This document shows, piece by piece, positions 5,972 to 10,349 of a DNA stretch of 10,349 bases; within the stretch, counting starts at the first letter, position 1; every line of letters starts with the position of its first letter. Made by a program: the position numbers and the translations under genes. The notes under the pieces are model-generated. The model was not told the DNA's origin. It searched no databases and worked only from the letters and a program-made list of their open reading frames with translations. Origin of the DNA: Elusimicrobiota bacterium (GTDB taxonomy: Bacteria > Elusimicrobiota > Elusimicrobia > 2-02-FULL-39-32); contig JACPSV010000085.1 in the NCBI GenBank assembly GCA_016193115.1, positions 1,401-11,749 of the forward strand. The letters run 5' to 3'.

Positions 5972-6556
5972 ATGAGTCGCATAGGATTAAAACCGATTGC
6001 CGTTCCGGAAAAAGTCGCCGTCCAAGTGCGGGACGCCTCGATTGAGGTAAAAGGTCCGGGCGGAACTCTCTCCCGCAAAGTGCCCCAAGGGATAGGGATT
6101 TCCGTGGATCAGGGGCAGATCAAGGTGGCTGTCCAGGATCCTGCCGTGGAAGGGGTTTCTGCCTTGCATGGACTGACTCGAAATTTAGTCGCGCAGATGG
6201 TTCAGGGAGTGGTCCAGCCCTGGAAAAAAGATTTGGAAATTCAGGGTGTGGGATATCGCGCGTCCAAAAACGGACAGATCTTGAATCTGCAGCTTGGATT
6301 CTCTCATCCCATTGATTTTAAGGTGCCGGAGAAAGTGCAATTTTCCGTAGACGCTAAACAAACGTTTGTCAGCTTGCAGTCGCCGGACAAAGAGCTTTTG
6401 GGAATCGTGGCCGCTCAGATCCGTTCCCTGCGCCCGCCGGAACCCTACAAAGGAAAAGGAATACGTTACCATGGAGAACATATCTTGAGAAAAGCGGGTA
6501 AAGCCGCAGGTGCTGTCGGCGCCGGTGGTAGCGCCGGAGGAGGAGCTAAGAAGTGA
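5972..6556 (+). CDS. rplF: 50S ribosomal protein L6, with Ala/Gly-rich tail
   Basis: L6 binds 23S rRNA near the sarcin-ricin loop and factor-binding site. It has the tandem L6 repeats. The start is [15 protein letters not shown], followed by [16 protein letters not shown], the QGVGYRAS block, [13 protein letters not shown] and the RNA-contacting C-terminal [24 protein letters not shown] (GKG at residues 161-163). The conserved protein ends near residue 176. An additional low-complexity Ala/Gly/Ser segment ending in Lys-Lys takes it to 194 residues (family about 178). The DNA of this tail contains the ribosome site for rplR. The stop overlaps the GTG of rplR. Confidence 0.96.
6536..6545 (+). 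promoter_or_regulatory. Shine-Dalgarno site of rplR inside rplF
   Basis: GGAGGAGGAG, encoding the last Gly residues of L6, ends 7 nt before the GTG at 6553. It is one of the strongest ribosome sites in the window and supports that GTG as the L18 start. Confidence 0.65.
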
Positions 6557-6960
6557 CAATCTCCGATTTAGAAAGGTACCATTTTAGAAAGGATCGGGTG
6601 CGCCGCAAAATTGAGGGCACTTCCCTGCGTCCGCGCCTTTCCGTGTATCGCAGTTTGAAACATATCTATGCTCAGGTCATTGACGACGCCCAATCCAAGA
6701 CGATCGTTTCCGCTTCTTCTCAGGACGACCAGGTGCAGAAGGCAGTCAAGTCTACAGGCAACGCGGAGGCCGCTCGACTGGTGGGAAAATTGGTGGCCGA
6801 GAGAGCTTTGAGCGCCGGCGTCAAACAAGTCGTGTTTGATCGTGGCGGTATCTGGTTGTGGTTGGGGACGGAGCCAAACACGTGGGCGTTTCTCTGGGCA
6901 AGGCGCGGGAAGTTCAGGCGGCCATCGCGAAGGCCTCTGCGCGCGCGCGAAAAGATTTAA
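6553..6960 (+). CDS. rplR: 50S ribosomal protein L18, C-terminus replaced by out-of-frame tail
   Basis: L18 binds 5S rRNA and anchors it to the large subunit. Residues 1-99 are ordinary L18: [33 protein letters not shown], then the core with [17 protein letters not shown], and [10 protein letters not shown] at residues 90-99. In intact L18 the last motif is followed by a Tyr-x-Tyr-His-Gly-Arg-Val stretch and about 15 more residues. Here the frame instead runs 36 codons through DNA that encodes S5 in another frame, giving an unrelated Trp/Arg-rich tail. The protein as written is therefore broken after residue 99. The start GTG overlaps the rplF stop (GTGA) and has a strong ribosome site. The defect arises from the same event that beheads rpsE, either a sequence-assembly collapse or a true deletion. 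Confidence 0.88.
6840..6858 (+). other. rplR/rpsE deletion junction
   Basis: Homology to L18 (frame of 6553) stops at the Gly-Gly codons 6844-6849. Homology to S5 (frame of 6858) begins at the Leu codon 6852-6854 of LVVVGDG. In the S5 frame a TGA at 6837-6839 closes the frame just before, so no S5 N-terminus can be encoded upstream. Comparison with ordinary L18 and S5 implies that roughly 180-200 bp are missing: about 21 L18 codons, its stop, a short spacer and about 35 S5 codons. The breakpoint lies within about 6844-6852 and could involve a short GC-rich microhomology (GGCGGT). Confidence 0.75.
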
Positions 6961-7241
6961 TTGAGGTGCCATTAGTCGGTACGACGATTCCGCATGAGAT
7001 CATTGGCGAGTTTGGAGCGGGAAGAATTTTTATGAAACCGGCGGCTCCCGGAACCGGAGTTGTGGCAGGGGGCGCCGTGCGCGCCGTGTTGGAAGCGGTA
7101 GGCGTGAAAGACATTTTAACGAAGTCTCTGGGCTCTTCCAACGCGTTCAATCTGGTCTATGCGACGATGCAGGCCCTGGGCAGCCTACGCTCTAAAGAGA
7201 GCGTCGCTAAACTAAGAAACAAAGAGTTGGCGGAGGTCTGA
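6858..7241 (+). CDS. rpsE: 30S ribosomal protein S5, N-terminally truncated
   Basis: S5 sits at the mRNA entrance of the 30S subunit and affects decoding accuracy. The frame starts inside the first domain at [19 protein letters not shown]. It continues with [22 protein letters not shown], the [26 protein letters not shown] signature and a normal C-terminus. Missing are about 35 N-terminal residues of the double-stranded-RNA-binding-like domain. These include the LxERVxxVNRVxKVxKGGRR-type segment, where spectinomycin-resistance changes map in other bacteria. The GTG at 6858 is only the first possible start: it has no ribosome site and is an internal Val in the family. The visible 127 residues compare with about 165 normally. 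The TGA stop is 3 nt before rplO. rpmD (L30), often found next, is absent. Confidence 0.88.
7232..7237 (+). promoter_or_regulatory. Shine-Dalgarno site of rplO
   Basis: GGAGGT in the last codons of rpsE lies 7 nt before the ATG at 7245. It is a near-perfect ribosome site that fixes the rplO start and shows there is no room for rpmD between rpsE and rplO. Confidence 0.65.
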
Positions 7242-7244
7242 CCC

Positions 7245-7712
7245 ATGTCTCTTGCGTTGGATTTGTCTCATTTGTCCCCTGCTCCCGGATCTCATCACCG
7301 CAGAAAAGTTGTCGGGCGCGGGGTCGGTTCCGGGCATGGACGCCATGCAACCCGCGGGATGAAAGGTCAGCGTTCCCGCCGGGGAGACAGCAAGATGATC
7401 GGGTTTGAAGGAGGGCAGATGCCTCTTCTACGCCGCATCCCGAAAAGGGGCTTTTCCGTTCCTTTTCCAAAATATTTTTCGGTGGTCAATCTGGATCTGT
7501 TGGACCAGAGTTTTCAGCCCAAATCTGAGGTCACACCCCAAATCCTAATTGAGAAAGGGATTCTTAAACGGAGTCTCCCTCTTAAAATTTTAGGGAAAGG
7601 AAAATTGGAGAAACCTCTCCAAGTTTCTGCCCAGGTTTTTTCGCAATCTGCTAGAGAAAAGATCGTTGCAGCCGGAGGAACTGTCACAGTCCTTTCAGGC
7701 AGTGAACGTTAA
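7245..7712 (+). CDS. rplO: 50S ribosomal protein L15
   Basis: L15 is a late-assembly 23S rRNA binder with a long glycine/arginine-rich extension reaching into the subunit core. The 155-residue product (family about 145-150) begins with [20 protein letters not shown]. The Gly-rich [22 protein letters not shown] and [17 protein letters not shown], both diagnostic, come next. The globular part follows, ending with [15 protein letters not shown]. Its last 11 nt overlap the chosen start of psd. In most bacteria the next gene is secY, which is not present here. Confidence 0.96.
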
Positions 7713-8358
7713 TCCTAAGACTTTACCTCTCTCCCGGGAAGGACTCCCCTTCGTAGTTGGTTTTTTTCTCAGCGGGTCCATTCTTCTCTTCATTCCTTAT
7801 TCTCTAGCGCGTTTTCTAGGCGCGCTTTTCCTGATTTTAGGTTTTTTTTGCGTTTTTTTCTTCCGTGATCCGGAGAGAGAAATTTCTTCCGATCCATCGG
7901 TGGTTCTGTCTCCAGGAGACGGAAAAATTTTGGAGGTGACGGAAGAACCTTCGCCCTACTGGAACGGATCCGCAAAAGTCGTCAAGATTTTTCTCTCCAT
8001 ATTCGACGTCCATGTCCAACGTTCACCCCTGGCAGGCGACGTGCTTGCGATTGACTACCACAAAGGAAAATTTCTGGACGCGCGCCATCCCAAGGCCTCT
8101 TCGGAGAATGAGAGTAACAGCGTTCTGATCCAAAACGGGAATCTCCAGATCGCCGTGAAACAGATCGCGGGTCTGATAGCCCGGCGGATCGTCTGTTGGG
8201 TTCGAAAAGGAGAGAGCGTGACGGCCGGCCAAAGGATCGGTCTCATACGGTTCGGTTCCCAAGTGGATTTATTTCTGCCAAAAAATGTAGAATTGTGTGT
8301 ATCCCCGGGCGAAAAAGTCGTGGGAGGAGTGAGCGTCGTAGCCATTCTGAAACCATGA
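7702..8358 (+). CDS. psd: Phosphatidylserine decarboxylase, short (archaetidylserine-like) type
   Basis: The enzyme decarboxylates phosphatidylserine to phosphatidylethanolamine using a pyruvoyl group made by self-cleavage. The 218-residue product has two adjacent hydrophobic segments (about residues 15-50) anchoring it to the membrane, then FFRDPERE. Next comes [10 protein letters not shown] with the probable catalytic Asp73, then [11 protein letters not shown] with His104. The cleavage site is in [12 protein letters not shown], where Ser186 would become the pyruvoyl group. That gives a beta chain of 185 residues and an alpha chain of about 33. The start is not certain. GTG at 7702 overlaps rplO by 11 nt and gives a normal length. 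TTG at 7666 would overlap rplO by 47 nt, and the GGAGGA at 7674-7679 is poorly placed for either. No methionine codon exists in the N-terminus. pssA follows in an ATGA overlap. Confidence 0.92.
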
Positions 8359-9182
8359 AAAGCGGTGTCTATTTGATTCCCAGTACCCTGACGGCCATCA
8401 ACATGGCGTTGGGTTTTTATTCGATCGTCGCTTCCATCCGCGAACAGTGGAACGTGGCTGCATGGGCGATTTTAGCCGCTATTTTGATGGACGTTTTTGA
8501 CGGGCGCGTGGCGCGTTGGACTAAAAGCACCTCTAAGTTTGGCATCGAGTTTGATTCTCTGTCCGATTGGATATCTTTTGGCATTGCGCCTGCCATTCTC
8601 ATGTACATGCTGGTTTTGCGGGACCGGGGCCGCATTGGTTTTGCGATCGCTCTGCTTTACATTATCTGCGGGGCGTTGAGGTTAGCGCGGTTCAACCTAA
8701 AGTCCTTGTTTGAAAAAGACCAGGCTCCCTACTTTGTTGGGTTGCCGATTCCGGCTGCGGGAGGGATTCTGGCCTCTTTTGTAGTCCTCTATGACATTTG
8801 GGCGGAAGGAAAAAAGGCGCGGACAATTCAACTGGTCATGCGGCAGGTGCCCGCGTTTTATCATCTTCTTCCCGGCATCTTATTTGTCCTGAGCATCCTG
8901 ATGGTTTCGGAAGTGCGCTACAGTTCTTTTAAGAAAGGGAGCTTAATTAAGCCGCGCTCTTTGAGGACGTTTCTCACTTCGGTTCTTGTGTGTCTCATGA
9001 TCTATGTCTATCCCCAGAACACGATCTTTATTCTCTTTTGCGCTTACATCTGTTCCGGAATTTTAGAGACTTTTTGGCGCGCGACCCGGTACCATCCCAA
9101 AGAAAAAGAAAAAGAAAAAGATTTGTCCATAGAAACGCCCAGCGGGAACTCCTGGGAAATAAAGAGAAAAGCAAACCAATGA
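8355..9182 (+). CDS. pssA: CDP-diacylglycerol-serine O-phosphatidyltransferase
   Basis: The enzyme makes phosphatidylserine from CDP-diacylglycerol and L-serine, the substrate of the adjacent psd. The 275-residue polytopic membrane protein starts at the ATG overlapping the psd stop (8355-8358) with [20 protein letters not shown]. The CDP-alcohol phosphotransferase motif D-G-x2-A-R-x8-G-x3-D-x3-D is perfect at D49, G50, A53, R54, G63, D67 and D71. A further Asp46 lies just before it. Several hydrophobic helices follow. The conserved [11 protein letters not shown] and [13 protein letters not shown] blocks are typical of serine rather than glycerophosphate transferases. The C-terminus is a soluble Lys/Glu tail with a short repeat. 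The frame is open to 8196, but that part overlaps psd and has no family similarity. leuA begins in the stop codon. Confidence 0.94.
9099..9120 (+). repeat. Short GAAAAA tandem repeat in pssA
   Basis: An AAAG/GAAAAA hexanucleotide unit is repeated three times, encoding Lys-Glu repeats in the cytosolic C-terminal tail of PssA. The purine run is a potential slippage tract, but loss or gain of whole units keeps the frame. Confidence 0.6.
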
Positions 9183-10349
9183 GAGATAAAGTCACCATTT
9201 TTGATACGACGTTGCGGGACGGGGAACAGTCCCCGGGTTGCAGCATGGACGCCAAAGAAAAGTTGGAAGTCGCCCACCAACTGGCGCGCTTGAAAGTGGA
9301 CGTTCTGGAAGCTGGTTTCCCGATCTCTTCTCCGGGCGATTTTAAGGCGGTCCAAACGATTGCGGAGACTGTGGGTCGCGGCAAGAAGAGCGATCATGTA
9401 CCCCAGATTTGCGGTCTGGCCCGCGCCATTCCCGCCGACATTGATGCCTGCTGGAACGCCGTCAAAGAGGCGAAGTTTCCGCGCATCCACACGTTTCTCG
9501 CCACGTCCGACGTGCACATGAAATTCAAGCTCAAAATGACCCGTGGTCAGGTTCTGGAAAGAGCCGTGGAGATGGTTAAGCACGCTCGCAAATATACGGA
9601 AAACGTGGAGTTTTCACCGGAAGACGCGGTGCGGTCCGACTTCAATTTTCTGGTGCAGGTGGTTACCGCCGTGATTGACGCGGGCGCCTCGACCGTGAAT
9701 GTTCCCGACACGGTGGGATACTCCGCTCCCGTAGAGTTTGGTTTATTGATCAAGAACCTATTTGAAAAAGTTCCCAACATTCGTAAAACCGTTCTTTCCG
9801 TCCATTGTCACAACGATTTGGGGTTGGCCGTGTCCAACTCGTTGGCGGCTGTCTTAAACGGCGCACGGCAAGTCGAGTGTACGATCAACGGGCTGGGAGA
9901 ACGCGCCGGCAACGCCTCTTTGGAAGAGATTGTCATGATCTTAAAAACCAGACCTGACCTGTTTCATGTGGAAACCGGCGTGGAGACAAAGGAAATCTAT
10001 CGTTCCAGTCGTCTGGTCAGTCAGATTACGGGCGTGACGGTTCAGCCGAACAAAGCGATTGTGGGGACGAACGCATTTTCCCATTCTTCCGGAATCCATC
10101 AGGACGGGATGCTTAAACATAGGATGACTTACGAGATCATGGACCCTAAAGACGTGGGCATTGAAGAAAGCGTGCTTCTTCTCACGGCGCGTTCCGGACG
10201 GAACGGGTTGAACAACCGTCTCAAACATCTGGGATTTGATCTCACTGCCAAAGATTTAGATCTCTTGTTTGAGAAGTTTAAAATTTTGGCGGATAAGAAG
10301 AAATATGTCTTTGACGACGATTTGGCGGCTCTACTTTCCGAAGGGCAGA
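9179..10349 (+). CDS. leuA: 2-isopropylmalate synthase (3' partial)
   Basis: LeuA condenses acetyl-CoA with 2-ketoisovalerate to 2-isopropylmalate, the committed and usually leucine-inhibited step of leucine synthesis. The 390 visible residues begin at an ATG overlapping the pssA stop (ATGA), with [21 protein letters not shown]13 and D14 form the start of the active site. [12 protein letters not shown] follows, then [14 protein letters not shown] with metal ligands His209 and His211. [15 protein letters not shown] carries the third ligand, Asn245. The linker region [21 protein letters not shown], typical of LeuA rather than homocitrate synthase, precedes the start of the subdomain leading to the regulatory part. 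The frame is open at the right edge, so the remaining 110-130 residues, including the leucine-binding domain, lie outside. Citramalate synthase is the main alternative but fits less well. Confidence 0.95.

Follow-up and report, generated by a model that had tools for sequence, protein, structure and literature searches.

A probable local assembly error at the rplR-rpsE junction in the draft metagenomic genome of an uncultured Elusimicrobia bacterium

The join found between the ribosomal protein genes rplR (L18) and rpsE (S5) in a draft bin of an uncultured Elusimicrobia bacterium, at 6850|6851 of the stretch of DNA analysed (10,349 nucleotides, hereafter the window), is very probably a local assembly error, as judged from sequence comparison. 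This reading was preferred because intact forms of both proteins exist in the same species, the loss is not shared by relatives, the lost segments can be aligned with ribosomal protein chains of known structure, and further losses affect unrelated conserved genes of the bin. From these data we infer that the fault arose during assembly and was not present in the DNA sampled. The organism itself would most likely possess ordinary rplR and rpsE genes that, as elsewhere in its family, abut or share a single base; two parts of the operon would have been joined by the assembler, by a scaffold-join step or through a chimeric read.

The window corresponds to bases 1401-11749 of the bin contig C213 (11,749 bp). 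The bin is a draft metagenome genome of 1,495,510 bases in 321 contigs, with a completeness of 80.25% and a contamination of 1.61%. The closest named proteins and contigs belong to Elusimicrobia MAGs. The operon present in the window extends from ribosomal protein L4 to L15, and the 16 other ribosomal genes showed near-full-length matches to the family models; that these genes look complete counts against full certainty in an assembly error. With respect to the bacterial order L6-L18-S5-L15, that of the spc operon, the order and strand of L18-S5-L15 are the same as in the family contig MGUS01000107.1, but the window differs in the absence of 165/166 bp across the L18-S5 boundary, a stretch that all 7 family genomes bearing the locus retain. 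Coordinates of the features are shown in Table 1.

Table 1. Features of the rplR-rpsE-rplO region, in window coordinates.
Feature	Position	Strand	Basis
rplR (L18), genuine part: codons 1-99 and one base compatible with codon 100	6553..6850	+	PF00861 9-96 of 116; residues 2-99 identical to P0001
Join, with 165 or 166 bp absent by comparison with same-family genomes	6850..6851		Distance from DRGG to S5 residue 35; codon analysis without overlap
Spurious L18 tail: S5 coding DNA in the wrong frame, ended by a chance stop	6851..6960	+	Same DNA encodes S5 from residue 35 onward
rpsE (S5), reduced to residues 35-163; opens with CTG, nearest usual start codon downstream GTG at 6858	6852..7241	+	Identical to P0121 35-163; PF00333 from 25 of 65; PF03719 complete
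rplO (L15), intact	7245..7712	+	P0241, 155 aa, 100% identity, on a 2604-bp contig

The L18 frame (6553-6960, start codon GTG) encodes 135 amino acids. In profile searches it was matched up to position 96 of 116 by PF00861 and up to 94 of 114 by TIGR00060, with scores over the curated cut-offs (110.6 versus 27.8 bits and 99.4 versus 87.85 bits, respectively). It is not a full-length L18, as the segment C-terminal to the DRGG motif (residues 96-99) is absent. Past this motif the frame continues for 36 residues through DNA that encodes S5 in another frame, in agreement with the initial annotation, which had described an L18 normal up to DRGG and then an unrelated tail. Residues 2-99 are identical to those of the intact L18 protein P0001, whose final 21 residues are absent in the window.

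The S5 frame opens at 6852 with residue 35, encoded by CTG, and the retained part corresponds to residues 35-163 of the intact protein P0121, the N-terminal 34 residues being absent. The C-terminal domain (PF03719) is complete, and the N-terminal domain (PF00333) is incomplete, with a match from position 25 of 65, or from 19 in the six-frame search. The score against TIGR01021 was 162.2 bits, under the cut-off of 164.05, compared with 206.2 bits for intact P0121. The beginning of S5 at an internal position had been recognised correctly; about 21 L18 and 35 S5 residues had been estimated as lost, and 21 and 34 were measured against P0001 and P0121. Both absent segments, the end of L18 and the start of S5, align with chains of solved ribosomal proteins.

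For comparison, 59 other genomes were used as relatives, the window's own genome being excluded from the counts and being the only one of its genus. L18 was matched in 56 of the 59, always reaching PF00861 position 115 or 116 (56/56), and the S5 N-terminal model PF00333 was likewise matched in 56 of the 59, in every case from position 4 or before (56/56). Neither an L18 nor an S5 N-terminal match was obtained in G001, G018 and G032. Among relatives with a completeness of 90% or more and a contamination of 5% or less, both were matched in 43 of 43. When the junction was compared, neither the 7 family genomes that have the locus nor the 56 relatives with a match showed the deletion.

A fixed, tolerated deletion of 165 or 166 bp is extremely improbable. 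The organism would then produce an L18 without its last 21 residues and with the 36-residue out-of-frame tail, and an S5 without its first 34, translated from CTG at 6852 or from GTG at 6858 inside the L18 frame. While the S5 frame is open and its C-terminal domain complete, its score falls below the TIGR01021 cut-off, the L18 match stops 20 positions short of the TIGR00060 end, the segments concerned are those that align with solved ribosomal proteins, the deletion is common to none of the 56 matched relatives, and intact forms exist in the same species. In a Thermus Tn-seq study, insertions are ranked 'Intermediate' for L18 and 'Less permissive' for S5 (PMC13140390), a ranking by which the lethality of a partial L18 loss would not be absolute; on the other side, L18 is reported to be vital for the viability of E. 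coli (PMC9538462). A real deletion would, if true, mean a striking tolerance of the ribosome to the loss of conserved segments, and the evidence points away from it.

The distance from DRGG to S5 residue 35 was 2 nt in the window, against 167 or 168 nt in seven of the eight remaining family genomes, the eighth (G001) giving no match; chance is therefore excluded. In those seven genomes rplR and rpsE overlap by one base (5/7) or touch (2/7), with no spacer. Provided that the species is arranged like its family, the loss amounts to 165 or 166 bp. The 180-200 bp proposed initially was too large, since the family genomes have no spacer between L18 and S5. In a first measurement of this distance over 123 loci, the value 2 appeared only in the bin's own copies (L001, L032 and L042); many rows of that measurement had no distance or a nonsensically negative one, the motif differing or lying elsewhere, and the seven family rows were redone with another motif.

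The join was also examined at codon level, using the part of intact L18 beyond DRGG and the part of intact S5 ahead of residue 35. Whichever codons are chosen, L18 accounts for no base beyond 6850 and S5 for none before 6851. As far as protein sequences tell, the two parts would thus be joined without shared and without inserted bases. The collapse at a microhomology suggested at first was not supported, as zero bases are common to both sides under any codon choice; by reasoning rather than computation, an overlap of 3-4 bases would require one more base to have been lost or changed. A simple de Bruijn collapse requires a shared word. As there are no shared bases, an error of assembly would need another source, such as a read that is itself chimeric, the joining of scaffolds or a step of local assembly, and 165 or 166 bp would have been dropped there. 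Assemblers make simpler errors than a join of this kind, which also counts against full certainty.

Protein searches were carried out against about 5.8 billion clustered proteins, with about 8000 candidates scored per search and the best 120 listed. P0001 is a 120-aa L18 that ends in the usual way, the same as the window over the 99 retained residues except for the start codon. It is encoded on 2 contigs, the longest of 7752 bp, with sources ncbi, lgn and nr, and its NCBI name is 'MAG: 50S ribosomal protein L18 [Elusimicrobia bacterium]'. Among the matches listed (best 120 of about 8000), the next L18 was 66% identical, and the whole foreign L18 tail was carried by no match, coverage being at most 79% of the 135-residue query. 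P0121 is an S5 of 163 aa with an ordinary start, on 2 contigs, the longest of 2604 bp, with lgn as its sole source. Among the best 120 of about 8000 listed for S5, it was followed by the window's own P0122 and then by a match of 88% identity. The source lgn is taken by us to be Logan, that is, assemblies of public reads. P0121 is without an NCBI source while P0001 has one, so that the 7752-bp contig probably stops short of the S5 terminus.

The L15 of the window is encoded identically by P0241, on a contig of the same length as the longest one of P0121; judging by this equal length, it is very likely the contig that bears the intact S5. This L15 is also recorded in a shorter version, P0242 (151 aa), on 3 contigs. 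P0122, the truncated S5 of the window (129 aa, on an 11749-bp contig), was already present in the protein collection searched, with a length that would make the CTG at 6852 its first codon.

Assemblies of the same species without the anomaly therefore exist at the protein level and for each gene separately, P0001 and P0121 being intact and identical over the retained parts; the intact L18 and the intact S5 were each seen as a protein on separate records, not together on one contig. P0121 was also compared with contigs of named relatives. Identity was at most 85% among the best 80 of 266 loci encoding a relative, so that none of these 80 is of the window's species, in a scan that may omit records of the window's own genome or of very near ones.

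A second L18 or S5 was searched for in the bin with family profiles, with both intact proteins and with DNA, and only the locus of the window and weak matches were obtained. An L18 match on C92 (E 0.05) and an S5 match on C236 (E 0.49) were set aside as weak. The duplicated intact copy that had been offered as one possible cause was thus not found in this bin, which is about 80% complete; around 20% of the genome may lie outside it, leaving room for a second copy.

A real deletion carried by part of the population (by cells that are dead or dying, by a minor strain, or by a cell with an intact copy besides) and chosen by the assembler over the intact form is unlikely. A metagenome bin is a population consensus, and the join without microhomology is as compatible with a molecule that was truly joined, or chimeric, as with an error of the assembler; even so, the intact proteins lie on other contigs of the species, the bin yielded no second copy, and one minor variant at rplR-rpsE would leave unexplained the breaks in secY and ilvC described below. 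Regarding the cause, then, assembly error was the best supported of the explanations put forward initially, by the intact same-species L18 and S5 and by the other losses in the bin, while neither microhomology nor a second copy in the bin was upheld.

The only secY match of the bin is on contig C92 (L136:3242-4442, minus strand) and covers profile positions 43-306 of 306. Positions 1-306 were covered in 7 of the 8 other genomes, and G006 gave no match. The gene is split inside the contig, one frame corresponding to SecY positions 1-55 and an overlapping frame to 99-413 of 414, with about 43 codons absent (net about 128 nt in comparison with the G007 protein) and a change of frame. The adjoining ilvC (C92, L136:4453-5284, minus strand) is split as well, into 36-136 and 179-331 of 337, with about 37-42 codons absent, net about 107 nt in comparison with the G007 protein, and a change of frame. 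Of three other proteins scanned on C92, namely adenylate kinase and the two acetolactate synthase subunits (small and large), all have their full or almost full length. The first 25-35 residues of ilvC were also unmatched, and 16 bases separate the ilvH stop from the first matched base of ilvC; given only these 16 bases, a further loss at the start of ilvC is possible.

Frame-breaking events were counted by homology in 41 stretches totalling 276,123 bases of the bin, with a sample of G007 and G002 proteins as the reference to which genes were matched. Four events (128, 107, 53 and 16 nt) were found in 99 matched genes, the remaining 95 being free of them. With the same procedure, the controls gave 0 events in 71 genes for G007 versus G002 and 0 in 65 for the reverse, both being one genome pair in two directions and the numbers small. 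Two same-frame gaps of 246 and 303 nt appeared in the controls and were not counted as frame-breaking. Contigs C213 and C92 were sampled on purpose, and the secY and ilvC breaks of the latter, the two largest events, were known beforehand; without both contigs, 2 events remained in 64 matched genes (39 stretches, 247,668 bases), and that these are only two and small counts against full certainty. On C213 there were 0 events in 17 matched genes, and the L18-S5 join is outside the four because the procedure looks within single genes.

The two small putative events, at L217:3462-4581 and L220:293-1443, are changes of frame relative to the G007 homologues in which about 53 and 16 nt net would have been lost. 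When the proteins of G002 together with the bin's own ORFs were compared with G007, 4 frame-breaking rows were obtained in 120 matched genes, each of net 20 nt or less and two from one query; all four queries were the bin's own ORFs, which makes this no clean control, the cause lying possibly on either side. A coding-frame screen for frame switches was unreliable, as it missed the join at 6850 and that of secY and gave 1 match in the bin's own set versus 7 for the control contigs, and it was replaced by the homology comparison.

Several frame-breaking losses in a single bin would also be expected of a lineage in genome decay, with secY, ilvC, rplR and rpsE all pseudogenes. This is very improbable, given that secY, rplR and rpsE are core genes for which no second copy was found in the bin, that L18 and S5 of the same species are intact elsewhere, and that 95 of the 99 matched genes bear no event.

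On present evidence there is no biological novelty at rplR-rpsE, and the main value of the result is a warning that two ribosomal proteins are wrong in this record. Ribosomal proteins such as L18 and S5 serve as phylogenetic markers. Similar losses in secY and ilvC mean that claims of gene absence or of pseudogenes drawn from this bin need checking. Local assembly errors are listed among the defects of MAGs in a published account, in which omitted curation is said to propagate incorrect protein-coding sequences in public databases (PMC7111523, Genome Res. 2020). The putative error of the window would be of the same kind, as it lies inside a contig, disrupts conserved genes and has given rise to an incorrect protein entry, P0122.

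After L15, the window (7245-10348) contains genes for phosphatidylserine decarboxylase and CDP-alcohol phosphatidyltransferase and a leuA-like gene, secY not being next. The same gene order after L15 is present in the family contig MGUS01000107.1 (L044), and it is thus not peculiar to this bin.
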